Origin: Anaeromicrobium sp. | GTDB lineage: Bacteria; Bacillota; Clostridia; Peptostreptococcales; Thermotaleaceae | Length of the DNA: 64,000 bases | Reading direction: 5' to 3' | Assembly: GCF_025210435.1 (NCBI RefSeq) | Contig: NZ_JAOART010000023.1 | Span: 1-64,000 of the forward strand | Shown: piece after piece, positions 10,698 to 28,709 of the stretch | Layout: each line of letters opens with the position of its first letter | Numbering within the stretch: the stretch's first letter is position 1 | Position numbers and translations under genes: made by a program | Notes under the pieces: model-generated | The model's database searches: none | What the model was told of the DNA's origin: nothing | Seen by the model: only the letters and a program-made list of their open reading frames with translations

Positions 10698-13484
10698 ATG
10701 AAAAAGCACCTTGGTTTCTTTTGTATATTAATACTTGTCATAATAGGTTCCCTTTTTCTTTTGTGGGATTATAGTTATTTTCTAAATGAACCCGTAACTT
10801 TAACAGGATATGGTGTAAAAGATATTAACCATGACAAAATTCAACTAAAGGATCTATGGACAGATAGTGAACAAAATACCTATTATTATGGAAAACTGAA
10901 TAAAACTAGCATGGATATAATAAATTTTTATAATAAACCTATTAAAAATGGAAAGGAAGAAATGAGATCTTTCTATTTAGATACATCCCAAGAATACCTA
11001 TATAAGGTGAATGATAAGGGTGAAATTATTACAATGATCCATTGGCCAAAGCACATGGGTAAGATGGTACAGGCAGTTAGTGATAATAAAGGGCATATGT
11101 ACATTCAATGGAGTAAATATGATAGATACAACTCTAAAATAGTAGAAGAAGGAATTAATAAATATTCAGAAAAGGGTAAATTTTTGGGAATGATTTTTAA
11201 AAAATCCTATGAAGGAAAGGTATTTCCAGAGGCACCTTATGGTAAGGGCTTTATAAAAAATTTAAACTTTGAAAAGGGTAGAGTATATTTTTATCATCAG
11301 ATAAATAAAAAGATTACCTTATACTACTATGAAAATGCCATAAAAAAAATAATGGATATTCCTGTAGATGAAATGGACTTTAAGATTATAGACATAATAG
11401 GAAGTGAACCTGGACAAATTTATTTTGACACTAATGATTCTAGGTTTGGAATAATAGATAAAAAAATGAACATGGTTTTTTTAAAGGATTATTTGAAAGA
11501 AAATAAGGTTATTGGAAAAATAAGATTCAACAGAAAAAAACATGTATATATAGAGACTTTAACAGAAAGAAATGTGGAATTAGATAGATATAATGGATAT
11601 GGATTTATTTCTAGTGCTTCTAATAAAAATCAGGTTGACAGTATATACAAGGAAAATTACTCTAAAATTCCAATAGAAAAGTTGACCTATTCTAAGGAAA
11701 TAATTAGGAAAAAGTATATAGTTTTGATTTCCTATTTATCAGTGTTAATTTTAATAATTTACGCTATTAGATTTTTATATGTATATGTATTTCAAAATAA
11801 AGTATACATAGTTTTTAAACAATTAATGTTACTTATTCCGATCATTCTTATAGGAATGCTTATATTCGTATTGAAAACTGTAGTAGGGGGATTTGGAGAA
11901 TTTTCAAATGAAATACAAAGTGGCAAATTTCATGAATTTAATCAAATAATAGATAGAAAGATAGAGTTAGTAGAAAAAAAATATGAAAATCCATTTTACC
12001 TAGGGGATTTAATAGATTCAATAGATCTATATGAGCCCATGGATCCTCATAGGTATAAGGAATTATATAACTTAACAAAAATATCAGATATGGACCATAT
12101 GGAAGATGTAAAGGGTATGTATGTAGTAATAGATAAAATTGAAAATAATCAGTCCTATAAGATTCTTGATTCTGAAAATAACTTTAAGCTATATTATCCA
12201 AGATTTTCAAAGGGTGATAACAAATATTTTTGGGCTGCATCAAGGGGTGCTGTAGTAGATGCAGTAGGAACTGGTGAAAAATATATATTTACTATGAAAC
12301 CTATATATAACAGCTTAGGAAAAGTGGCTGGAATTTATCAAATAGGAATGTATTATGAAGGCTATAGAAAGAATTTAGACATGAAGTTTTTTACAAAGAG
12401 TATAGTTGGAATAATGATTACAACCCTACTTATAGTGTTTGCAGTGGTGTTTATAACTTATATAATTTTAAGGTCATTAGGAGAACTTACAAAGACTGTT
12501 AAGGAAGTGTCAGCAGGTAATTTAGATACTCAATTAAGGATAAATTCTAAAGATGAGATAGAAGATTTATCAGATGCGTTTAACAATATGACTAGCAACA
12601 TAAGAGAATATATAGATGATATAACCGAACTTAGTAATGACTACTATAGATTTGTTCCTCAAGAGATTTTTCAAATATTAGATAAAGAATCTGTCAATGA
12701 AATAACCTTAGGAGAACATAAAAAATTTAATATGTGCATCTTAAATGCAGCAATTGAAGATTTCTATAAAATATCAGAAAAAATTAGTGCTGAAGAGAGC
12801 TTTAAGCTAATAAATGAATATTTAAAGATAATAGGTCCAATCATAAGAAAACATAATGGAGTAATAGAAAAATATCTTGATAAGGGAGTTGTGGCCATAT
12901 TTCCACAAAACGGCCAGGATGCCGTAGAAGCTGGTAAGGATATTATTAGTGAAGTCCATAAATACAATATATACAAAAGTAACAACCTTCCTGTTGGAGA
13001 TATTAGGATTGCCATCCATAAGGGACCCATATTAATAGGCATAATTGGTGAAGAGAAAAGATTACAAAGTAGTATTGTATCAGATAGTGCAAATTTAGTT
13101 GGTCTTATGAGACAAAAGGCCAAAAAACTTTGGGCTAATATAATTATAACTGATGAAGTAATGAAGGATATTAAGGATAAAACTTATCTACACAGATGTT
13201 TAGGAAATATAAGTATGTCAGATAGGGAAGAAACTATTGAGTTATACGATATATATGATGCAGATAAAAAAGAAATGAGGCAATTTAAGGATAAAAGTAA
13301 AGATTTATTTGAAACTTCCGTTAAAAATTTTAAGGTTGGTAAGTTTTATGATGCTAGAAGTGGATTTGTAGAAATACTAGATAAAAATATGGAGGACAAT
13401 GGAGCTAGAGAATATTTCTATCAAAGTGATGACAAATATAGAAATGGTGTAGATAAAGATTGGAATGAAAGTCTAAAAGTTTAG
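10698..13484 (+). CDS. Membrane receptor with HAMP and degenerate class III cyclase domain
   Basis: A 928-residue protein opening the CIS locus. Helices lie at about 7-25, 337-362, 372-395 and 568-592, with an extracellular propeller-like segment (30-335) and a second sensor segment (396-567, Cache-like). HAMP follows at 593-645, and a class III nucleotide cyclase domain spans about 670-860. The cyclase keeps its scaffold (GPILIGIIGEEKR, SDSANLVGLM), but both metal-binding aspartates appear lost: the first motif reads LNAAIEDF where FADIRGF is usual, and the second reads YLDKGVVAIF where YxGDxxMAxF is usual. It is therefore probably non-catalytic, a sensor or scaffold. The start follows AAGGAGAGAAGGAAGG. 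Confidence 0.7.
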   Translation: MKKHLGFFCILILVIIGSLFLLWDYSYFLNEPVTLTGYGVKDINHDKIQLKDLWTDSEQNTYYYGKLNKTSMDIINFYNKPIKNGKEEMRSFYLDTSQEYLYKVNDKGEIITMIHWPKHMGKMVQAVSDNKGHMYIQWSKYDRYNSKIVEEGINKYSEKGKFLGMIFKKSYEGKVFPEAPYGKGFIKNLNFEKGRVYFYHQINKKITLYYYENAIKKIMDIPVDEMDFKIIDIIGSEPGQIYFDTNDSRFGIIDKKMNMVFLKDYLKENKVIGKIRFNRKKHVYIETLTERNVELDRYNGYGFISSASNKNQVDSIYKENYSKIPIEKLTYSKEIIRKKYIVLISYLSVLILIIYAIRFLYVYVFQNKVYIVFKQLMLLIPIILIGMLIFVLKTVVGGFGEFSNEIQSGKFHEFNQIIDRKIELVEKKYENPFYLGDLIDSIDLYEPMDPHRYKELYNLTKISDMDHMEDVKGMYVVIDKIENNQSYKILDSENNFKLYYPRFSKGDNKYFWAASRGAVVDAVGTGEKYIFTMKPIYNSLGKVAGIYQIGMYYEGYRKNLDMKFFTKSIVGIMITTLLIVFAVVFITYIILRSLGELTKTVKEVSAGNLDTQLRINSKDEIEDLSDAFNNMTSNIREYIDDITELSNDYYRFVPQEIFQILDKESVNEITLGEHKKFNMCILNAAIEDFYKISEKISAEESFKLINEYLKIIGPIIRKHNGVIEKYLDKGVVAIFPQNGQDAVEAGKDIISEVHKYNIYKSNNLPVGDIRIAIHKGPILIGIIGEEKRLQSSIVSDSANLVGLMRQKAKKLWANIIITDEVMKDIKDKTYLHRCLGNISMSDREETIELYDIYDADKKEMRQFKDKSKDLFETSVKNFKVGKFYDARSGFVEILDKNMEDNGAREYFYQSDDKYRNGVDKDWNESLKV

Positions 13485-13497
13485 AAGGTTGATACAT

Positions 13498-14223
13498 ATG
13501 CATATATACAATCCAAAGAAAAGACTAAAAATAAAAGATTCTTCTAAAAGGAAAAAATCTAATAAAAGATATTTAAAACAACAAAATATAAATTTATCTA
13601 CCATTACACCAGATAGTATATACAAATTACAAAATAAAATTGGAAATAAGCAAGCAGAGCTTTTATTAAAGGAACTTGGAGATTTACAATTGAATAAAAA
13701 AAGCCCTAATGTGGCTGAGTTAATAACCTATGACCATGGGGGAAATAATAATGAAACTATGGAGTCTAAAAGGGAAATAGAAGACTTTAAGAGATTATCC
13801 TATGAAAATACATTAGCTAGTAGTGAAGCTATAAAAAGTGGAAGGTTTTCTGTAGACCATAATAATACCATAAAACCAGGCATAAGAGCTGAAAGTATGA
13901 ATAAGGACATAAAGGGTCTTGTTCAAATGGTGAATTTCTTCAAATCCTATGACCCTAGATTAGATAAAAGAGAAGAAAAGGTAAAATTAGACGATAAATT
14001 AATGAAAATGGATGAGAAAAAACATAGAAATGAAGTGGACTATATAATTAAAATGATAATGGCCCTTCCAAACTATGAGGGCAATAATGAGGTCATATCA
14101 CAATATATGAAGGTGCAAAACTTTTTAATATCATCTGGATGTAATCTATCAGACTTATTTAAATATAATGGACATGTAAAAAAACAAAAGGAAATAATAT
14201 TAAAGGCTATAGAAGGCAGATAG
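13498..14223 (+). CDS. Candidate CIS cargo/effector with LQxxxGN leader motif
   Basis: A 241-residue soluble, very basic protein. The ATG at 13498 is preferred (AGAAGG 9 bases before) over a TTG at 13489. Residues about 5-30 are Lys/Arg-rich. Then comes ITPDSIYKLQNKIGNKQAE, which has the LQ-x3-GN-x4-LL pattern common near the N-terminus of eCIS-associated cargo proteins (for example LQRTIGN in DUF4157 proteins). The C-terminal 150 residues are helical with no recognised enzyme motif. It sits between the receptor and the PAAR-like spike tip, a usual place for payload. The assignment as cargo is inference from motif and position. Confidence 0.5.
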   Translation: MHIYNPKKRLKIKDSSKRKKSNKRYLKQQNINLSTITPDSIYKLQNKIGNKQAELLLKELGDLQLNKKSPNVAELITYDHGGNNNETMESKREIEDFKRLSYENTLASSEAIKSGRFSVDHNNTIKPGIRAESMNKDIKGLVQMVNFFKSYDPRLDKREEKVKLDDKLMKMDEKKHRNEVDYIIKMIMALPNYEGNNEVISQYMKVQNFLISSGCNLSDLFKYNGHVKKQKEIILKAIEGR

Positions 14224-14235
14224 GAGGAAAAACTC

Positions 14236-14622
14236 ATGGGTTTTTTAGTCACCAATGGAGCCATGATTCAATGTTCATTTGGACAAGCCCCAGGGACACT
14301 TATGGTTCTTCCAACTAATAAGGTCATGGCTACTACTCCTGCAGCCACTATAATGGATAATAAACCCATGGTAAACATATTGCCCTTTGGCATGTGTATG
14401 TCCCTATCAAATCCAACGGTGGCAGCAGCAACCACAGCTGCCTTAGGAGTACTAACCCCCATGCCATGTATTCCAAATACCACTGCACCTTGGGCACCTG
14501 GATGTCCTAGTGTATTAATAGGAAATAAACCGGCTTTAAATAATACTTCAAAGTTAATGTGTATGTGGGGAGGAATAATACAAATAGTTCAACCCAGTCA
14601 AATGCAAACAATGATTCCGTAA
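14236..14622 (+). CDS. PAAR-like spike-tip protein (DUF4280 type)
   Basis: A 128-residue protein with the DUF4280/PAAR-like layout: MGFLVTNGAMIQCSFG at the start, PTNKVMATTPAATIMDN, NILPFGMCMS, a central GVLTPMPCIPNTTAPW, and PALNNTSKLMCMWGG at the end, with spaced cysteines that could hold a metal. PAAR proteins form the sharp tip of the spike in contractile systems and can carry cargo. The start has AGGAGG nine bases before. Here the tip gene is placed at the head of the locus next to candidate payload genes, far from the spike hub genes at 29378-31200. Confidence 0.8.
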   Translation: MGFLVTNGAMIQCSFGQAPGTLMVLPTNKVMATTPAATIMDNKPMVNILPFGMCMSLSNPTVAAATTAALGVLTPMPCIPNTTAPWAPGCPSVLIGNKPALNNTSKLMCMWGGIIQIVQPSQMQTMIP

Positions 14623-14628
14623 AAGGGT

Positions 14629-14789
14629 TTAGGCATATTCAAAAAATAAATCAGTCATTTCACTGGTTATTTGAATTATTTTCTTCGTTATGGATCGCTA
14701 ACATATGTTTAATATACTCCCTTACCATGCCTTGAAAATAATCGAAATTCCTCAGAGAACTGACTAGTTTATTTCTTTCATATGCCTTA
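14629..14789 (+). repeat. Family B MITE-like repeat, copy 2
   Basis: 161 bp between TTAGGCATAT and ATATGCCTTA. It lies inside the CIS operon between the PAAR-like gene and the next gene, whose ATG at 14805 begins 15 bases after it. The ribosome binding site GGAGTG is just outside the repeat. Confidence 0.85.
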
Positions 14790-14804
14790 GAATGGAGTGA
14801 TAAT

Positions 14805-17135
14805 ATGCCTGTAACAACTACCAAGAAAAATGTACAAAATAAAACTGGAAATAATAAAATTCAAGGAAATGGCCAAACCAAAAGTCCTAAAGGAAAAGGA
14901 GTTAAAAATAATCAATTAGCTATGACTAATAGGAAAAAACTAGATGTGATTAAAATGGGAGAATACTTGAAAGATGATTATGTAAAGAAAAAAATTGAAG
15001 GTAATATTCAATCGGGAAAAGAGGCATGTAAAAATTCCTTTTATCTCAATGTATCCCATAGTACAAAAAGAATATTTGGCTGTAATGGTGGTGTTGTAGG
15101 AAAATATAAATCGGATAAAATTGGATATGATATGAGAACTCACCTTAAGGGTCAGGGGAGAGATTGGGCTAGACATGAGGTGGATATTAAGAAAGATGAG
15201 TATCTAGATAAGGAATTCCAAAAGATAGATGGAAGTTCAAATTTTGCAAACGATGAGGAAAGACAATTGGCTAAGGATGAGTTAAAAGATACTACAGCCT
15301 TAAGGACCATGTTTTTAAAAAATAGTTTATATTCCATGGTAAAAGGAGATGTGGAAGAGAGGTTAAATAGGGAAAGTAATAGTACATGTGATGAAATATA
15401 CTCCCAATATGAAAATGATTTTAAGGATGAGATTGAGCATAGAACAATAGGTGCTTACAAGTGGAGTTTTAGGATGAATTACTTAAGGTCAAAGGAAATG
15501 GGAATTTCCCATGTGACGGCACTTGATTTGGCGGAAGGTAAGGCATTAGAGGCGGTAAAGAACAGGGCTCCTTCTATGGGAGTAGCTGTTTTTAAGGAAA
15601 AGATTGATGAAATATTAAAGAAAGCTGAGATTAAGGCTGAGAGTAGAAGAAGCATTATCATAAAAGAATTGAATGGAAAAGAAGAAAAAAATAAGGTTAA
15701 TTTTCAAAATACATCAGATTATAGTAAGGCTAGGGACTATATATACGATGGACAAGGGGTTAGTTTAGAAGAGAGAAAAGATGGTATAAAAGACAAAATA
15801 GAGGAAAATCATATAGAAGCAACAAATGTAAATAAAGGATTATTAATATTTACAAGGCCACTAGTAGGAGTAGTGCCCCATCCAGGAGATAGTGCATCAG
15901 CCTCTGGCACAATAAGCATACCAATTCCTAATTCTCCTGCATATATATTCTTTAAATTATCTGGCAATGTGGAGCGAGATGATGATGGATATGTAACGGC
16001 TAAATTTAGAGCAGCCGTAGGTGCTGGAGGAGGAGTGGGAATAGCCAATATACACGGAGAGTTAGGCGGATTTTTACAAGTAAAGGGCCAATCGGCTGAA
16101 CATTTATCCATGCTTTTATCCTATGTACTCTATAGACAGTTTAGAGAATCCAAAATAGTTAATCACCACATGACAGATGCTATCTGGGGAATGGGTGGAA
16201 GAACTGGAGAAGGAAAGGATAAGGAAGCAGATGCTTATGGAGGTATGATGGAAAGGACCCTATTTGGAGGAAGTGCAGATAGTTCTGCTAGTATAGGATC
16301 TGATTTGGGATTCGGTGCAGACATAGGAGGATCAGTGGGGGGAAGTATAAGTGCATCTGCCTCTGCCATGCGGCAATATTCTAAGACAAGTTTTGAAAAG
16401 GGAAATGGGAAAGGACGCCTTGGAAAAATAGAAGGACACAAATTTTTAGGACAAAAGTCTAAGGGAGATATGATTGAAAAGCTTAAGATAGAAGGTTCTG
16501 TGGCAGGTGTTGGAATGGAAGCATCCTTAGGCCTTAGGGGCTCAACTATCCAAAATGTCACTATAGGGCTAAATATGTCCCTAGGAGGGGCCTATGGTGG
16601 AGATAAATCTCAAATGGCAACTAAAATAATACAGGATATAATACTCCATCTAAAAAGTGCAAAAGTTAACATAGAGAAGGTCTATGAAGCTTATAAAAAT
16701 AGGAAAAATAAGAAAATAGATCCCCTATCCGATGAAGCTGCAAGGGTTGGGTCTGAAATTGGAATTGTATCTTCAGATATAACAGAGCAAATAAATGCCA
16801 TGGTGGATACAGAAAATACTCTAGCCAGTAAAATTGGGGAAGTGGATAGTCCTGTAAATGGCCAAAGTACCCAAATTGCAGATTCGGGAAGTTCCCTTGC
16901 TATGGGGGTTGAATATGAATGGAAAAGGGGAAGTAAGGGAAATATAACATTTTCTCTGAATTCTGAGAATGAGTTATCATTAGACCTATTCCTTGGAGGA
17001 ATTTCACTACAAAAATCTAGAAGGTTAGCTAGCTGGAGTACTGGAGACGATATGGAAAATTTAACAAAAGCCATTGGAAAGGGAAAAAATCCAAAAGAAA
17101 GATTAAGTGCTCTTAAGGAAGGAGTATCCATATAA
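14805..17135 (+). CDS. Large glycine-rich protein, candidate CIS cargo
   Basis: A 776-residue protein with no recognised family. Residues 1-50 are disordered and rich in Lys, Asn, Gly and Thr. Residues about 55-330 are helical and charged. Residues about 345-640 change to alternating Gly/Ser/Ala-rich strands (AAVGAGGGVGIANIHGELGG, GADIGGSVGGSISASASAM), as in proteins that form beta sheets or enter membranes. The last 130 residues are mixed. It follows the PAAR-like tip and precedes the assembly genes, so it is a good payload candidate, perhaps membrane-active; this is inference. No DUF4157 protease motif (HExxH) was found. Confidence 0.45.
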   Translation: MPVTTTKKNVQNKTGNNKIQGNGQTKSPKGKGVKNNQLAMTNRKKLDVIKMGEYLKDDYVKKKIEGNIQSGKEACKNSFYLNVSHSTKRIFGCNGGVVGKYKSDKIGYDMRTHLKGQGRDWARHEVDIKKDEYLDKEFQKIDGSSNFANDEERQLAKDELKDTTALRTMFLKNSLYSMVKGDVEERLNRESNSTCDEIYSQYENDFKDEIEHRTIGAYKWSFRMNYLRSKEMGISHVTALDLAEGKALEAVKNRAPSMGVAVFKEKIDEILKKAEIKAESRRSIIIKELNGKEEKNKVNFQNTSDYSKARDYIYDGQGVSLEERKDGIKDKIEENHIEATNVNKGLLIFTRPLVGVVPHPGDSASASGTISIPIPNSPAYIFFKLSGNVERDDDGYVTAKFRAAVGAGGGVGIANIHGELGGFLQVKGQSAEHLSMLLSYVLYRQFRESKIVNHHMTDAIWGMGGRTGEGKDKEADAYGGMMERTLFGGSADSSASIGSDLGFGADIGGSVGGSISASASAMRQYSKTSFEKGNGKGRLGKIEGHKFLGQKSKGDMIEKLKIEGSVAGVGMEASLGLRGSTIQNVTIGLNMSLGGAYGGDKSQMATKIIQDIILHLKSAKVNIEKVYEAYKNRKNKKIDPLSDEAARVGSEIGIVSSDITEQINAMVDTENTLASKIGEVDSPVNGQSTQIADSGSSLAMGVEYEWKRGSKGNITFSLNSENELSLDLFLGGISLQKSRRLASWSTGDDMENLTKAIGKGKNPKERLSALKEGVSI

Positions 17136-21158: not shown

Positions 21159-22916
21159 ATGGTTTCTTTAAAGATTGAAGAAACCGCTCGTATGCCAGAA
21201 TATTTATCACCAGGAGTATATGTTGAAGAATTTGAAAGTGGTGGAGTTCCAGTAGCTGGAGTAAGTACATCAACGGCAGGATTTATTGGACTTGCCCAAA
21301 GGGGAGAAGCAGAGGGGTTACCAGAACTTGTAACTAGCTTTGCAGATTTCCAAAGAAAGTTTGGCTCATATTTATCAGAGAATCAATTCGGTGAATATAG
21401 ATTCTTATCTTATGCCGTAGAACACTTCTTTATAAATGGAGGAAGTAGAGCATATGTAATGAGAGTTGCACCAGAAGATGCTAAGTCAGCAATAAATGAT
21501 TCTTTAGGATTTATAAAACTTGAGGCTAAAAACCCTGGAACTTGGGGAGACAGAATTAGAATTTTAGTTACACCTTCTAGCAAAGCTAAAACACAAATCC
21601 TTGAAATGTTAAGTCCAGCTCAATATAGAGTTAAAAGCGGTATTGGATTTAATGATGGTGACATTGTAACTTTTACTGATGGTGAAGAAAAGCAAGTAAG
21701 AAAGATTGTTATGGCACAACAAAATTTACTTACTTTAGATGTTTCACTAGAAGGTGATGTGGTTGACACTAATATTTTACCACAAAAACTTTTATCTACA
21801 GCAGAATTTGATTTACAAGTTGCATATGGAGATGAAGTTGAAATTTATGAAAAGTTATCTTTAAATCCAATTGGAGCTAACTTTATAGACAAAAAGGTAA
21901 ATAAATCAAGCTTAATAAAATTATCTTGTAACCTAGATGAAATAGGTGATATGGCTACACCATTTGATAAAATTGCAGGAGGAGAAGATACAAACTCTAA
22001 ATTCTGGATTGAATTATCAGGTGGTAATGATGGATCAATGGCTAATATTTCAGCTGCTGATTTCATGGGTAAAGATTTAGGGCCGGGTAAGCGTACTGGT
22101 ATTAAATCATTTATCGACAATGAAGAAGTAAGCATTATGGCTGTACCAGGAATAACTATTCCAGCTGTACAACTAGATTTATTAGCTCACTGTGAACTTA
22201 AAAGCAACAGATTTGCTATCTTAGATATTCCTAGGGAAACTAAGAAGGTAAATGACATTAAGGAATATAGAAACATGTTTGATACAAGCTATGGTGCATT
22301 ATACCACCCATGGTTAAAAGTATTTGACCCAATGGATAAAAGAAATATTCCTATTCCTCCATCTGGATCTATTGCTGGTATCTTTGCAAGATCTGATAAC
22401 ACTAGAGGAGTACACAAAGCTCCAGCTAATGAAATAGTAAGAGCATGCGTGGCCCTTGATTGTCAATACAATAAGGGTGAGCAAGATATCCTAAACCCAA
22501 TAGGTGTTAACTTAATTAGATTCTTTACGGGACAAGGTATAAGAGTATGGGGTGCAAGAACTCTTAGCTCAAATCCACTTTGGAGATACATAAACGTTAG
22601 AAGATTATTTATCTTCCTTGAGGAATCTGTAAAGCGTAGTACTGATTGGGTAGTATTTGAGCCTAATGATGAAGAATTATGGGCAAGGGTAAAGAGAAGT
22701 CTAGATAACTTCTTGACAGGTGTTTGGAGAACTGGTGCACTTGCTGGTAATGCACCTGGTGATGCATACTTTGTAAAAATTGACAGAACCACAATGACCC
22801 AAGATGATATTGACAATGGACGATTAATTTGTGTTATCGGAGTTTCTCCAGTTAAACCAGCTGAGTTTGTAATCTTTAGATTTACTCAATTTACTTCTGA
22901 AAGCGGTGGAGAATAA
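21159..22916 (+). CDS. Contractile sheath protein (Cis2-like)
   Basis: A sheath protein of up to 585 residues. MPEYLSPGVYVEEFE, the hallmark N-terminus of Afp/Pvc sheaths, begins at residue 12 (ATG at 21192), so that start may be the true one; the ATG at 21159 lies only one base after the AGGGGGG ribosome binding site. The C-terminal core has YINVRRLFIFLEESVKRSTDW, FEPNDEELWARVKRSLDNFL and GRLICVIGVSPVKPAEFV, the conserved tail-sheath core. It polymerises around the tube and contracts on firing. Only one sheath gene is present, unlike loci with several paralogues. Confidence 0.95.
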   Translation: MVSLKIEETARMPEYLSPGVYVEEFESGGVPVAGVSTSTAGFIGLAQRGEAEGLPELVTSFADFQRKFGSYLSENQFGEYRFLSYAVEHFFINGGSRAYVMRVAPEDAKSAINDSLGFIKLEAKNPGTWGDRIRILVTPSSKAKTQILEMLSPAQYRVKSGIGFNDGDIVTFTDGEEKQVRKIVMAQQNLLTLDVSLEGDVVDTNILPQKLLSTAEFDLQVAYGDEVEIYEKLSLNPIGANFIDKKVNKSSLIKLSCNLDEIGDMATPFDKIAGGEDTNSKFWIELSGGNDGSMANISAADFMGKDLGPGKRTGIKSFIDNEEVSIMAVPGITIPAVQLDLLAHCELKSNRFAILDIPRETKKVNDIKEYRNMFDTSYGALYHPWLKVFDPMDKRNIPIPPSGSIAGIFARSDNTRGVHKAPANEIVRACVALDCQYNKGEQDILNPIGVNLIRFFTGQGIRVWGARTLSSNPLWRYINVRRLFIFLEESVKRSTDWVVFEPNDEELWARVKRSLDNFLTGVWRTGALAGNAPGDAYFVKIDRTTMTQDDIDNGRLICVIGVSPVKPAEFVIFRFTQFTSESGGE

Positions 22917-22958: not shown

Positions 22959-23387
22959 ATGTCTGACAGAAAAGACCCTATTAGAAATTTTAGATATAAA
23001 GTTTCAGTTGGTGGAGCTGAAGCTGGATTTAGTGAAGTAACAGGTTTTGAAATATCAATTGATACTATTGAGTATAGAGAAGGAGATGACCCAACTACTC
23101 CATATAAACTTCCAGGACTTTCTAAGTACAGTAACATTACCCTTAAACATGGTGTTACAGATGACATGGAATTATACAATTGGATTAAAGATTGTGTAGA
23201 GGGAAAAGTAGAAAGAAAGGTAGTTACAATAATAGCATTAGGAGAAGATGGAAGTCCCCTAGCTACTTGGGAAATAGTAGAAGCTTGGCCTGTTAAATAC
23301 ACGGCACCAGACTTTAATTCAACAGGTTCAGAAGTTGCAATTGAGTCTATGGAATTAGCACATGAAGGCTTAAAAAGAACTGCTTAA
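22959..23387 (+). CDS. Inner tube protein (Cis1-like, T4 gp19 family), first copy
   Basis: A 142-residue tube protein: MSDRKDPIRNFRYKVSVGG at the start, then GFSEVTGFEISIDTIEYREG, GLSKYSNITLKHGVT and WEIVEAWPVKYTAPDFNSTGSEVAIESMELAHEGL, the full T4 gp19-like signature. Hexamers stack into the tube inside the sheath. The start follows AAAGGGAGG. A long hairpin (23399-23460) follows the gene, which may end or process most transcripts here, so that sheath and tube are made in larger amounts than the downstream parts. Confidence 0.93.
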   Translation: MSDRKDPIRNFRYKVSVGGAEAGFSEVTGFEISIDTIEYREGDDPTTPYKLPGLSKYSNITLKHGVTDDMELYNWIKDCVEGKVERKVVTIIALGEDGSPLATWEIVEAWPVKYTAPDFNSTGSEVAIESMELAHEGLKRTA

Positions 23388-23498: not shown

Positions 23499-23876
23499 AT
23501 GACATTTCAAACGGAATATGAATTTACACTACCTAGAGGTTATGTGGATAAGGAAGGTAATCTTCATAAAAAGGGGATAATGAGACTTGCCACTGCAGCA
23601 GATGAAATAGTTCCTATGAGAGACCCTAGAGTACAACAAAATCCTAGTTATTTAACCATAGTACTTTTATCTAGAGTAATAACTAATTTAGGAACATTAT
23701 CTAAGATAGATACGGGTGTGATTGAAAACTTATTTACAGTAGATTTAGGATATTTACAAGAACTATATAGTAGAATAAATCAATTGGAAAACCCAAATAT
23801 TAGAGTTACATGTCCCCATTGTAGTGAGCGATTTGATGTGAGTATGGATTTTTTGGGGGAGAGCGTAGGATCGTAA
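23499..23876 (+). CDS. CIS tail-assembly-chaperone-like protein (upstream frame)
   Basis: A 125-residue protein with EFTLPRGYVDKEGNLHKKG, GIMRLATAADEI and RDPRVQQNPSYLTIVLLSRVI, a pattern shared by phage tail assembly proteins and the matching CIS genes. A single CxxC (VTCPHCSERFD) lies near the end. The ATG follows AGAGGAGGAG. The last codons contain the slippery heptamer T TTT TTG (23849-23855), and a -1 shift there would extend the protein into the DUF6760 frame (total about 186 residues). Its place between tube genes and a tape-measure-like gene equals that of lambda gpG. Confidence 0.75.
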   Translation: MTFQTEYEFTLPRGYVDKEGNLHKKGIMRLATAADEIVPMRDPRVQQNPSYLTIVLLSRVITNLGTLSKIDTGVIENLFTVDLGYLQELYSRINQLENPNIRVTCPHCSERFDVSMDFLGESVGS

Positions 23877-23885
23877 GGTATCCTA
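23849..23885 (+). promoter_or_regulatory. Predicted programmed -1 ribosomal frameshift site
   Basis: The slippery heptamer T TTT TTG at 23849-23855 is in the correct register for the upstream gene (codons GAT TTT TTG GGG). Ten bases on, a stem-loop TAGGAT(23866-23871)/ATCCTA(23880-23885) encloses the upstream gene's TAA. The -1 frame from here is exactly the open DUF6760 frame (open from 23837 to 24058). Confidence 0.7.
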
Positions 23886-24058
23886 TAAAGAAATTGAGAG
23901 AAGAAATGGCTTTTATAGCCTATTATTTCCATTGGTCCCACAAGGAAATAATGGAATTAGAACATAGGGAGAGAAAAAAGTGGTGCGAAGAAATATCTAA
24001 AATAAATAGAAATGTAAACGGAGAAAAGGAAAAGAAAAATATATTTGATGTATTCTAA
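23855..24058 (+). CDS. DUF6760-type CIS protein, probably made by -1 frameshift
   Basis: The frame encodes VRYPIKKLREEMAFIAYYF, then HWSHKEIMELEHRERKKWC and EEISKINR, the pattern of the small DUF6760 proteins found between tube genes in CIS clusters (position of Afp6/Pvc6). It lacks an ATG, GTG or TTG at the expected beginning: the codons before VRYP are GAG CGT AGG ATC GTA, and the first TTG (23891) or ATG (23903) would cut into the conserved start. Expression by -1 frameshift from the upstream gene explains this; an ATC start at 23870 about nine bases after GGGGGAG is the main alternative. Coordinates given are for the shifted part. Confidence 0.65.
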   Translation, partial: GGERRIVRYPIKKLREEMAFIAYYFHWSHKEIMELEHRERKKWCEEISKINRNVNGEKEKKNIFDVF

Positions 24059-24077: not shown

Positions 24078-24509
24078 GTGGATAAAAAAAATATGCCCGT
24101 TGGAAGTTTTTCATTTGCCATAGAAATAGAAGGAATTCAAGAGGCAAGTTTTATGAAAGTATCTGCCATAGCACAGGAAGTAGAAGTTGAAACTTATGAA
24201 GAAGGTGGAATGAACCATTTTGTCCATCAACTACCTGTAAGAACTAAATACTCTAATGTGGTACTAGAAAGGGGAATGACTAATTCGACAGAGCTAATGA
24301 ATTGGTTTAACCAAATAAAAGAGGGAATTATTATTAAGAAGAACTTCTCAATAATTCTATATGATCAAAGGGGAAATTCAGTAAGACGTTGGGATTTCTT
24401 TGGCGGATATCCAGTGAAGTGGGAAGCCTCAGATCTAGATGCCATGAGTAGCAATATGATGATTGAAAAAATAGAAATTACCCATGAGGGTATGAGGGAA
24501 AATAATTAG
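24078..24509 (+). CDS. Inner tube protein (Cis1/Cis5-like, T4 gp19 family), second copy
   Basis: A 143-residue second tube protein: MPVGSFSFAIEIEGIQEASF, then TYEEGGMNHFVHQLPVRTKYS, LERGMTNSTELMNWFNQ and RRWDFFGGYPVKWEASDLDA with IEKIEITHEG. It diverges from the first copy, especially near the start, as expected for a tube-initiator ring (Afp5/Pvc5 role) joining tube to baseplate. The start is a GTG at 24078 after GATAGGTG. Confidence 0.9.
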   Translation: MDKKNMPVGSFSFAIEIEGIQEASFMKVSAIAQEVEVETYEEGGMNHFVHQLPVRTKYSNVVLERGMTNSTELMNWFNQIKEGIIIKKNFSIILYDQRGNSVRRWDFFGGYPVKWEASDLDAMSSNMMIEKIEITHEGMRENN

Positions 24510-24542
24510 TAAAAAATTCTTAGATAGTAAAAGGTGGTGCCT

Positions 24543-27500
24543 GTGAAAAGAACATTAAAAAATATAGGAATGGATAACAAAAGCCTTTTATTAGGAAAGA
24601 GGAACTTTCTAAATCATATACTTAAAAAATATTATTTAAGTAAATATAGCATCGGATATTTAAATCTAAACCATAAATTAAATCCAGAATATGAATTTCT
24701 AGAAAATTATCAGTATGAAATTAATTGTCAGTTAGATATTTTAGAAGGGAATACAAAACATATACTAACTAACAATAATAACTTAAAAAAGTTTTTAAAT
24801 AATATTAAGGTAGACAAGAATCTTGTAAAAAGAGTTGAAAATAATATATGGTTACAAGAGGAAAGAAAGAAAGAAAATAGCTATTATCATATAAGAAAAG
24901 AAATAAATGAACAAATATATAATGCTTTTAAAAAATATGAGGACCATATAAGTAACAACAATATTTATAATGATGAAAATATTAAAAATGTATATAAAGA
25001 ATATTTTAATGAAAAAAAATTAAAAAATATATTTATTGAAAAGAACCTAATTAAAAATTTAAATAATCATATAGAAAATGAGATAATCAGAAATTTTAAA
25101 AATGAATATACAAAAGAAGAATGGATTAAAAATCACACAGAAAAAATTTTAACAGAACTTATAAAGTCTAATGAATTTCAGTATAACTTCCAAAATCATA
25201 TAAAGACCATATTTAAACAGAGTAATAATATAGATGAGATTAATAGAAATATAAGTTCAAATATACAAAATCTAATAATAAATACTTTTAATGAAGGTAA
25301 TGTTAAAAGTAACATAAGAAATTTATATGAAAATGAGATAGAAAAGAATATAAAAAATAATGAAGTCATTAAAAACATAAACACTATCTTAGATTCAAAT
25401 ATAGAAAATTTAATAATAAATACTTTTGATGAAAATCATGTTAAAAACAATATAGAAAAACTATATGAAAACCATATAGAAAATAATTTTAACCATAATC
25501 AAATTATAAAAAGCATAGATGATACTGTAGATTCAAATATAGAAAATACAATAAGAACTAGTATTCATGAAAATAATGTTACAAACAGTATAAAAAATCT
25601 GTATGAAAAGCATATAGAAAATAATGAAACTATAAAGAGCATAAATAATATAGCAAAAAATACTTTTAACGAAAATACAATAAAAAATCAAATAAAGAAT
25701 ATTTCAATAAGTAATGAAACTATAAATTATATAACTAAAACCATAAAATCAAATATACAAAATCAAATAATAAATACTTTTAGAAATATTATTTTTGAGA
25801 ACAAAGTAGAAAATATATCAGACACTAGTCAGATTTTAAAATATATAACTGAAAATATAAGCTTAAACATAAAGAATATTTTAAATGAAAGCTTATATGA
25901 AAATAAAACATTAAACATATCTAAAGATGTGGATATGTTTAATTATATTAATAAAAATATAATGGATCATATAAACAGTCTAGTTATTAATGAGTTTAAC
26001 GAAAACAACATAAAAGCCATATTTAACCTAGTTACTATAAAAGAATCAAATAAGGAAATAAAATCATATAAGATAACTTCCATAAAGAATGAAAGAAATT
26101 TCAATAGAGGAGATAATAACTGGTCAAATAGGACTGATAGATCCTTTAAAGGCATATATAATAGGGCTGAAATATTTAAATATGACATGTTTAATGAAAG
26201 GGTAAACTCACGGAACTGGGCCTTTTTTAAAAATGTATTTTTAGATAAAAAACATATAAATAATAAGAACTTTTATGAAAATATAAATACACAGGAAAAA
26301 GATATTCTTAATAAATATGACTATTTAACTAAGATTCATAATGAAAATATACTAGGTAATGAATATACAAATATAGTTAATAAATCCTATGAAGACTTGT
26401 TTTATTATTCCTTTATAGATAAGTATAATAAATTTAAAAGGGATACTAATAGAAATATTATTAGTAATATGGTAAATAAGAATAATTTAAGGACTCAAAG
26501 GATTGTTAATAGGATAATGAACAATACCATTAACATAAAGACTAAAAATAGTTCCTTATATACTTTTATTAATAAAGTAAACAAAAAAAATAGCATCATA
26601 TCCGAGGAAAAATTAGAAGAAATAATAAATGAAAAGATAGTTTTGTTGAAAACTACTTTGAATAAAGAAGAAAAAGTTTATTTAGAAGAATATCCAGAAC
26701 TAAAAAATTACCTTTATAAAAATATTAAAACCTATTTAAAGAAGAATGAAGAAAATCTAATAGAAGAAGAAACCATAAATAATGTTCTTATAGAAACATT
26801 AAAAGAAAACAAAAATATATTAACTAAAAACATAAGTTTTAATAGAGTTATAGATATATTAACTAAAAATCCAGACCTTAACATACAAAATAACCATATG
26901 AAGAAAGACATATCTTTCTTTAATAATAGGGAAAGTAAAGAAGAAATATTTCAAACAAATATAAATAAAAAAATATTAAACCAAGTAAATAACTTATTTA
27001 ATATAAGTAATAATAATCTCACTAATACTAATTTTATAAATAATAATGAAAATAGAATTCATAAGATAAAGATTGATTCTAATATTAATAAATTTAAAAA
27101 TAGCATATTTAATTCTTATAATAGTGAAATTATAAATACTCAATTTAAAAGGGATTTTATAAACTCTCATGTATCAATAATAAATAAAAAAAATAAATTA
27201 GAAGAAAATCATGAATCTGTAAATATAGAAAATCTAATAGATAAAAAAATATACAACCATGTTAAAAATAATGAAAACTTAATACTGATTAATGAATTAC
27301 TTAAGAACCAGGAATCATATAATATCCATGGACTTAGGAAAAGGGATATTTTAAATTTAAAACAATACGAAAAGAATATAGTATTAAATGAAAATATTAT
27401 AAAACCAAAGATTTTATATAAGAATATGAAATCTTTAATAAATAAGGATATTACTATAGACAATAGAATAGTTAATTTAAAGGAATCCATATCTAAGAGT

Positions 27501-28709
27501 ATTGATAGATTATTGATTAGGGATAAAAAAATAATCCAATCCATAGAAAAAAATATAATAAATGAAGAAATAAAAAATGAGTATATAAAAAATTACACAT
27601 CCATAATTAATAAAAAGAATAAAAGAGAAGATAAGGAATTACCAGAAGAAATTAACAGGATAATAAAAAGTAAAATAAAAACTCATATTAAAAACTCTAT
27701 AAGTTCAAATAAGGATTATGAAAAAGAATCCCTATTAGATTTAAAAACTGTAGAAAAACACTTACAGAAAATTGTAACTACACATTTATATGAAAATAAT
27801 ATGGACACTTTAAATGAGTTTATGGATAAAAGGATAAAAATCCAAAATAGAAAGCAGGAAAATAAAAATAATAAATATTTAAACAACATAATGGTAAATA
27901 AGATTTTCAATGAAAAAAAATCATTTATCAATAACTATGTAAATTTAGTAAATAAGAAAAATGAAGATTTCATATCAAATAATTTCATAGATGAGTCCAT
28001 AAGAAACGACATAAATGAAAGAATTAAAAGAAATGATTCCTTAATGAAAAAATATGAAATAACTACTAAAAATAAGCAAGTATATTTAAATCCAGATTTC
28101 ATTAAAGCTACAGATAAAAATATATCAAATGAAGAAATAAATAAATATATAGATATAAAAAAATATATAACCCATAAGAAAAATAATATTCATGAAAATT
28201 TAAATATACTACAAAGTGAATCTAATCTATATGAAAATGAAATAAGAAGTTATGTGAAATTAGAAAACAAAAAATTAAAAAATAATATAAGTACATTGAA
28301 TATATCTAATGAAAACAATCCCTTTTATAGAAACATAAATAGAAAATATGAAAAAGATCTATTAAAAATAAATAGGGGTTTACTTACTAAAAATCATATT
28401 CATAAAAACCTAATAGAAAAAAAAGATAAGGAGCAAATGAATTTAGTAAATATAAGTAAATCCTTTAAAGATGAAGAATATGGTACAAATGTAAACATAG
28501 TTTTTAAAAGGGACACAAAGGAAGAAGAACAGGTAATAAAGAAGGTAACTGAAGAAAATAGAAAGTTACAAAAAATATTAGAAGAGAAGATTGAAAAGAT
28601 AACTAAAGAAAAAAGAGAAGTTATAAGCATACCTAGCATATCAGAGAAAGTATATAAAAACATAGAGAGAAAGCTTAAAAATGAAAGACAAAGAAGAGGG
28701 ATGATATAG
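24543..28709 (+). CDS. Giant Asn/Ile/Lys-rich helical protein, candidate tape measure
   Basis: A 1388-residue protein starting at GTG 24543, six bases after AAAGGTGG; GTGs at 24534 and 24537 overlap that site. It is almost wholly helical, very rich in Asn, Ile, Lys and Glu, and more A/T-rich than its neighbours. Residues about 230-500 contain some six tandem repeats of about 46 residues (pattern DSNIENLIINTF-x-ENxVKNNIxxLYE). Residues about 680-1240 contain scattered repeats around YxxxxNKKN. It lies between the second tube gene and the LysM gene, where long-tailed phages keep the tape measure, and no other tape measure gene was found. No membrane helix is evident. Tape measure role is inference; a fibre is less likely from position. 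Confidence 0.55.
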   Translation: MKRTLKNIGMDNKSLLLGKRNFLNHILKKYYLSKYSIGYLNLNHKLNPEYEFLENYQYEINCQLDILEGNTKHILTNNNNLKKFLNNIKVDKNLVKRVENNIWLQEERKKENSYYHIRKEINEQIYNAFKKYEDHISNNNIYNDENIKNVYKEYFNEKKLKNIFIEKNLIKNLNNHIENEIIRNFKNEYTKEEWIKNHTEKILTELIKSNEFQYNFQNHIKTIFKQSNNIDEINRNISSNIQNLIINTFNEGNVKSNIRNLYENEIEKNIKNNEVIKNINTILDSNIENLIINTFDENHVKNNIEKLYENHIENNFNHNQIIKSIDDTVDSNIENTIRTSIHENNVTNSIKNLYEKHIENNETIKSINNIAKNTFNENTIKNQIKNISISNETINYITKTIKSNIQNQIINTFRNIIFENKVENISDTSQILKYITENISLNIKNILNESLYENKTLNISKDVDMFNYINKNIMDHINSLVINEFNENNIKAIFNLVTIKESNKEIKSYKITSIKNERNFNRGDNNWSNRTDRSFKGIYNRAEIFKYDMFNERVNSRNWAFFKNVFLDKKHINNKNFYENINTQEKDILNKYDYLTKIHNENILGNEYTNIVNKSYEDLFYYSFIDKYNKFKRDTNRNIISNMVNKNNLRTQRIVNRIMNNTINIKTKNSSLYTFINKVNKKNSIISEEKLEEIINEKIVLLKTTLNKEEKVYLEEYPELKNYLYKNIKTYLKKNEENLIEEETINNVLIETLKENKNILTKNISFNRVIDILTKNPDLNIQNNHMKKDISFFNNRESKEEIFQTNINKKILNQVNNLFNISNNNLTNTNFINNNENRIHKIKIDSNINKFKNSIFNSYNSEIINTQFKRDFINSHVSIINKKNKLEENHESVNIENLIDKKIYNHVKNNENLILINELLKNQESYNIHGLRKRDILNLKQYEKNIVLNENIIKPKILYKNMKSLINKDITIDNRIVNLKESISKSIDRLLIRDKKIIQSIEKNIINEEIKNEYIKNYTSIINKKNKREDKELPEEINRIIKSKIKTHIKNSISSNKDYEKESLLDLKTVEKHLQKIVTTHLYENNMDTLNEFMDKRIKIQNRKQENKNNKYLNNIMVNKIFNEKKSFINNYVNLVNKKNEDFISNNFIDESIRNDINERIKRNDSLMKKYEITTKNKQVYLNPDFIKATDKNISNEEINKYIDIKKYITHKKNNIHENLNILQSESNLYENEIRSYVKLENKKLKNNISTLNISNENNPFYRNINRKYEKDLLKINRGLLTKNHIHKNLIEKKDKEQMNLVNISKSFKDEEYGTNVNIVFKRDTKEEEQVIKKVTEENRKLQKILEEKIEKITKEKREVISIPSISEKVYKNIERKLKNERQRRGMI

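Follow-up and report, generated by a model that had tools for sequence, protein, structure and literature searches.

The question raised by this locus is how a conserved protein can be made from a reading frame that has no start codon. The window, that is, the whole analysed stretch of 64,000 nucleotides of Anaeromicrobium sp. (contig NZ_JAOART010000023.1), contains on the + strand a zero-frame gene at 23499–23876, which encodes a putative tail assembly chaperone of 125 aa (phrog_508, E 4.3e-6) with a C-terminal CxxC zinc-ribbon-like motif. The 3' end of this gene is GAT TTT TTG GGG GAG AGC GTA GGA TCG TAA. The -1 frame on the same strand is open at 23837–24058 and encodes DUF6760 (PF20546, E 2.2e-17; 63.3 bits against the curated cut-off of 27 in a Pfam search). 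From its opening to the conserved YP motif, the -1 frame contains no ATG, GTG or TTG. The earliest canonical start in the DUF6760 frame is TTG at 23894, which is within a conserved helix.

The sequence read at the end of the upstream gene offers a way into this frame. The slippery heptamer T_TTT_TTG is found at 23849–23855 (+) in the zero-frame register. Slip registers overlap here, with T_TTT_TTG followed by T_TTG_GGG and then by G_GGG_GAG. The last of them, at 23855–23861 (+), resembles GGGGGAA and could be either a second slip register or a Shine-Dalgarno-like stretch. A -1 shift at the heptamer is predicted to yield a fusion of 119 + 67 = 186 residues (~22 kDa). The initial annotation had described a 125-codon gene ending in an in-register heptamer, an open -1 frame that encodes DUF6760 without ATG, GTG or TTG at its expected start, and a fusion of about 186 residues, and the sequence agrees with it in each of these points. 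T_TTT_TTG and its downstream flank are identical in L002 and L009, the two nearest relatives of the window. With a probability of about 0.88, judged from sequence, a programmed -1 frameshift joins the chaperone to DUF6760 in the window.

Pfam matches identify the surrounding cluster as a contractile injection system. Its genes are, in order, an AAA ATPase, Pvc16, the sheath protein (21159–22916, +; PF04984 and PF17482), tube protein 1 (22959–23387, +; PF06841, E 4.8e-47), the chaperone/DUF6760 pair, tube protein 2 (24078–24509, +; PF06841, E 6.5e-44) and a 1391-aa protein. These are followed by a LysM/CIS_tube protein, hub, spike, gp25 and two baseplate J proteins. The order sheath, tube, chaperone is kept in all 14 larger relatives examined. 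In L154, two different sheath genes adjoin (13112–16690, - strand) ahead of the tube gene.

DUF6760 is present in 9 of 199 genomes of the order and in 13 of 398 genomes of the phylum, the window's own genome being counted in both. The corresponding numbers are 19 of 296 for the phylum of an Actinopolymorpha genome and 10 of 196 for the phylum of a Methanosarcina genome, again with that genome counted. The named genomes contain 544 candidate DUF6760 stretches, and the best 80 of the 544 were used, so Paenibacillaceae are over-represented. No DUF6760 was found in phages (tblastn, E up to 1) or, using the window protein as a query that reaches close relatives only, in viral contigs.

The starting set consists of 128 loci (L002–L102 and L109–L135, L007 being the window itself), while L103–L108 and L164–L173 are outside the statistics. 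Six loci are left out: L121 has no motif anchor, L022, L069, L071 and L073 have no zero-frame ORF of 100 aa by the rule used, and the zero-frame ORF of L123 is not the chaperone. L123 is still included as a start/no-slip locus in the synonymous-codon, heptamer-anchored fold and tree tests. Thinning at 70% identity, which also removes duplicate loci from two collections (e.g., L002/L023), leaves 33 representatives. Among the loci left out, L022 has T_TTG_GGG and no start. In L069 and L071, both from Oscillospiraceae MAGs, the chaperone and DUF6760 share one frame, with TGA between them and an ordinary ATG. L073, from a Methanosarcina MAG, has one G fewer than its relative L090 in the run ahead of the stop, so the frame relation is broken there, possibly by an assembly error.

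In the remaining 122 loci, the upstream ORF matches the chaperone profile at E 1.5e-37 or better, and DUF6760 is in the -1 frame relative to it. A single locus without a start could by itself be a decayed gene or a sequencing error. The recurrence of the same frame relation and of the conserved protein in 122 loci of many species makes this explanation scarcely credible, since a single error would not recur.

ATG, GTG and TTG are absent at the expected place in 93 of the 122 loci (L118, which has CTG overlapping the stop, is counted here), and 29 have a start. An X_XXY_YYZ heptamer precedes the stop in 84 of the 122. It is seen in register in 77 of the 93 no-start loci, a further 11 have GGGGGAA/G and five have neither. 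The start loci contain X_XXY_YYZ in seven cases, GGGGGA in 13 and neither in nine. The alignment thus bears out the co-occurrence of heptamer and missing start that the initial annotation had suggested looking for. It had also named, as evidence against a frameshift, homologues that lack a slippery site and begin DUF6760 at an ordinary start codon. Such homologues do exist in some lineages that use an ordinary start, and neither L002 nor L009 is among them.

After thinning, X_XXY_YYZ, GGGGGA and neither are seen in 17, 3 and 0 no-start representatives and in 4, 3 and 6 start representatives. Fisher's test of heptamer versus start on the thinned loci gives p 0.0028, a value that ignores kinship: an independent-pairs test, run on a tree of 70 rows, yielded too few pairs to back the association. 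In-register heptamers begin at 125 of 20,227 codons of the neighbouring ORFs. This corresponds to a chance of ~0.06 per 10-codon window, and the heptamer is seen in 17 of the 20 no-start representatives. In a synonymous test, the protein was fixed and codons were redrawn from each locus's own usage. The no-start representatives have 17 heptamers in 20 against 4.7 expected (p 7e-11), and the start representatives have four in 14 against 2.0 expected (p 0.11), the 14 including L123, which contributes nothing to the observed or expected numbers. This excess indicates that the DNA is constrained beyond the protein, mainly where the start is missing.

Four Paenibacillus loci (L033, L057, L060 and L082) have neither a canonical start nor a full slip site. 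They contain TCT TTT ATC, where their relatives have TCT TTT TTG. The stretch GGAGGAGG lies directly before ATA at the start position in L033 and before GTA in L060.

The tract TTTTTTGGGGG is a homopolymer, and runs of six T (68 runs) or seven T (5 runs) are seen in the overlaps. It can therefore be asked whether RNA polymerase slips on T6, so that some mRNA with an extra U encodes the fusion. All 73 runs of at least six T have their first T at the X position. This ribosomal register is not required by polymerase slippage, although the Phe-Leu or Phe-Phe sequence also favours the phase. Moreover, other no-start loci contain A_AAT_TTT, G_GGA_AAT or GGGGGAA and no T6 run. Polymerase slippage is hence considered very improbable compared with ribosomal frameshifting.

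The heptamers differ between loci at the same place: T_TTT_TTN, A_AAT_TTT, T_TTG_GGG and G_GGA_AAT/C. T_TTT_TTN or A_AAT_TTT are mostly seen in the phylum of the window. The five archaeal loci L127–L131 contain G_GGA_AAT/C, and three of them contain a start codon as well. Their resemblance to the Haloferax locus L170 suggests that they are haloarchaeal. In L127, L129, L131 and L170, G_GGA_AAT/C stands in the same register beside a start codon, and the frameshift and start routes may coexist in loci of this haloarchaeal type. GGGGGAA is seen at the expected place without a start in Methanosarcina (L090), Desulfoscipio (L101) and Pelotomaculum (L102).

Among 10 plasmid records, three of which were read by eye, a canonical start is absent at the expected place in seven. 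These contain GGGGGAA (Nostoc, Pseudanabaena and Kovacikia), GGGGGAG (Brasilonema, Paraburkholderia and Paenibacillus cellulosilyticus) or G_GGG_GGA (Rhodococcus). The records with a start are those of Rhizobium, in which the upstream ORF is not delimited, Haloferax and Streptomyces.

An ordinary start is used by most of the Actinobacteria sampled, Tumebacillus and two of three Brevibacillus loci. GGGGGA precedes ordinary GTG or ATG starts in many Actinobacteria, where it may be a Shine-Dalgarno sequence. For these, a start overlapping the stop (GTGA or ATGA) is the preferred reading. The upstream stop is TGA in 25 of the 29 start loci, usually overlapping the start, whereas 90 of the 93 no-start loci end the upstream gene with TAA or TAG. 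In 46 of the 93, ATA stands where the start usually lies. A single G/A exchange would turn ATGA into ATAA, and this could be a switch between lineages. It is offered here as a suggestion, because the stop/start pattern is partly forced by the overlap.

The same position raises another explanation: DUF6760 could be made alone from the non-canonical ATC at 23870, aided by the G-rich stretch 23855–23861 and by coupling to the upstream stop. This ATC occupies the usual start position, where other lineages have ATG or GTG, and GGGGAG is well spaced from it (anti-Shine-Dalgarno match of -8.4 kcal/mol). ATT, ATC, ATA or CTG is found within the interval in 22 of 28 thinned no-start heptamer loci, and the frequent ATA would fit such starts too. 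The annotation of a Nostoc plasmid indeed begins DUF6760 at an ATA overlapping the upstream TAG stop (L166, 725–895), which may be an artefact of a missed frameshift. However, the codon at this position varies among the closest loci (ATC in the window, TTA in L002 and CTG in L009), whereas the heptamer block is identical. A near-cognate codon is absent from six of the 28 loci, and 18 lack one with a fair Shine-Dalgarno sequence, and the NTA codons are frequent because of the overlap with TAA or TAG stops. Neither the heptamers nor the synonymous constraint would be explained by a non-canonical start. Independent initiation at ATC is thus regarded as unlikely, and the frameshift on T_TTT_TTG is preferred.

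The evidence on elements that may stimulate the frameshift is mixed. The initial annotation had reported a stem-loop enclosing the stop codon. The pairing TAGGAT/ATCCTA does exist, at 23866–23871 and 23880–23885 (the whole at 23866–23885, +, around the zero-frame stop 23874–23876). As a stimulator it is weak: 24 of 200 shuffles of the region 23856–23900 fold at least as well (z -1.2), and the stem is absent in L002 and L009. The stem-loop of the window is probably not functional. Downstream folding was also considered as a signal of no-start loci. When anchored at the heptamer, the mean z is -1.68 (n = 20) for no-start loci versus -0.58 (n = 14) for start loci. This difference is gone with anchoring at the protein motif (-1.16, n = 37, versus -1.21, n = 24), and the candidate was rejected.

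Among loci with a slip site, a Shine-Dalgarno-like element 6–11 nt upstream is seen in 21 of 35 no-start loci (9.4 expected) and in five of 15 start loci (5.2 expected). The window contains no such element 6–11 nt upstream of its slip site; the sequence at this position is GATGTG in the window and GAGGT in L002 and L009. Slippage in the window may occur at a modest rate.

Judged by profile and fold comparison, the upstream protein belongs with the phage tail assembly chaperones. All 35 aligned homologues match phrog_508 (tail assembly chaperone) at E <= 0.1, the best at 3.1e-9, and among three rows of solved folds the top two are YqbN and the HK97 chaperone. Pfam matches of the 35 homologues are weak: Gp41_Mu is matched by 18 (best E 0.0065) and Phage_TAC_7 by one (E 0.054). 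No chaperone model of NCBIfam is matched, and a search of solved structures by sequence revealed no relatives. Compared directly by hhalign, the chaperone alignment matches neither P2 gpE nor Mu gp41 alone, so the family link rests on phrog_508 and the fold. The label "phage tail assembly protein" is already given to the upstream gene in some public records.

A search for the chaperone in phages (E up to 1) found four records. Two of them match a 23-residue stretch at E 0.1, and the other two, from Streptomyces phages, match most of the chaperone length at E 0.7. In the one Streptomyces phage examined, the chaperone-like gene is located after the sheath and tube genes. This gene, gp90 of LuckySocke (L149, 2833–3711), shows a weak 27.8% match to most of the window chaperone and also matches the T4_baseplate family PF12322.

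The initial annotation took phage lambda gpG/gpGT as the model. A phage-type, -1 frameshifted chaperone is supported, and the closest model is rather the E/E+E' pair of phage P2. The gene order of P2, sheath, tube, E/E', tape measure, resembles that of the window with its candidate tape measure, and the T_TTT_TTG of P2 itself, beside the annotated -1 frameshift, is identical to the heptamer of the window. E' and DUF6760 are both short C-terminal domains with ..FHW....M....E...W.., and hhalign of 38 DUF6760 sequences with 11 P2 E' sequences gives E 3.6e-6 and a probability of 87.5% over 29 columns. The alignment points, with moderate strength, to a relationship between DUF6760 and the frameshifted E' domain. 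The chaperone homology, the resemblance of DUF6760 to E' and the shared T_TTT_TTG suggest that a P2-like chaperone pair has been kept by a contractile injection system.

Unlike P2, the window has a chaperone that is nearer to the Mu gp41 family and contains the CxxC motif, DUF6760 is separated from the long gene by a second tube gene, and the system is encoded by the cell. Mu gp41 shares with the window chaperone the phrog_508 family and the position after the tube gene, whereas its frameshift product arises by a -2 shift, as annotated in AF083977. The lambda slip heptamer is G_GGA_AAG, differing from T_TTT_TTG of the window. What is assumed to be common with lambda is an abundant short form and a rare frameshifted form (PMC5009743).

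Frameshifted tail assembly chaperones are well known in phages (reviewed in PMC5009743). GGGGGAA is given as a recurrent frameshift motif of phage genes in the account of the SEA-PHAGES set by PRFect (PMC10885494). It is seen in the same register in L090, L101, L102 and the plasmid loci of Nostoc, Pseudanabaena and Kovacikia, while the window has GGGGGAG adjoining a perfect T_TTT_TTG.

The missing starts, the varied heptamers in the same register, the synonymous constraint and the homology of both halves together argue strongly for a frameshift. What is inferred is the slippage itself, how often it occurs and what the products do. Most ribosomes would stop at the TAA at 23874 and release the 125-aa chaperone. 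A minority would slip back by one base on U_UUU_UUG, the P-site Phe and A-site Leu tRNAs re-pairing, and continue into the DUF6760 frame to give the 186-aa fusion. If the pair works like lambda G/GT and P2 E/E+E', its chaperone part would coat a tape-measure-like protein, the DUF6760 part would recruit tube subunits, and the slip rate would fix the ratio of the short to the fused form.

The initial annotation knew of no description of such a frameshift in contractile injection systems. This holds for the literature searched, in which subscription journals are thinly covered: no frameshifted chaperone in contractile injection systems of this kind and no mention of DUF6760 were found. The case can be filed as a known kind of chaperone frameshift in a new setting, the contractile injection system. 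DUF6760, a family of unknown function, gains a likely role. If it commonly forms the C-terminal half of a fusion, annotation programs may overlook it or assign it unusual start codons.

It can be speculated, with even odds, that a phage-type -1 frameshifted chaperone pair has been retained throughout one branch of contractile injection systems, with members in Bacillota, cyanobacteria, methanogens and haloarchaea, that its slip sites have repeatedly changed, and that related lineages have swapped it for a start/stop overlap by one base (NTGA for NTAA or NTAG). These injection machines are then predicted to be assembled on a tape-measure/chaperone complex, even those without a reported typical tape measure gene. 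The published accounts of the Streptomyces and haloarchaeal systems (PMC10066040, PMC11566945) report such an absence. Length control and cargo loading would become testable through the change of one heptamer.

The client of the chaperone could be the 1391-aa protein at 24534–28709 (+), a candidate tape measure by its position. The pair had initially been placed between the tube and tape measure genes. It does follow tube 1, with the second tube gene intervening before this putative tape measure. A long protein is seen at the same place in eight of 10 relatives of the same phylum. Those eight proteins are 1257–1859 aa long and barely alike. The 1391-aa protein has no family match in profile searches and no transmembrane stretch in a crude scan. 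It consists of 19% Asn, with very little Ala, Gly or Pro.
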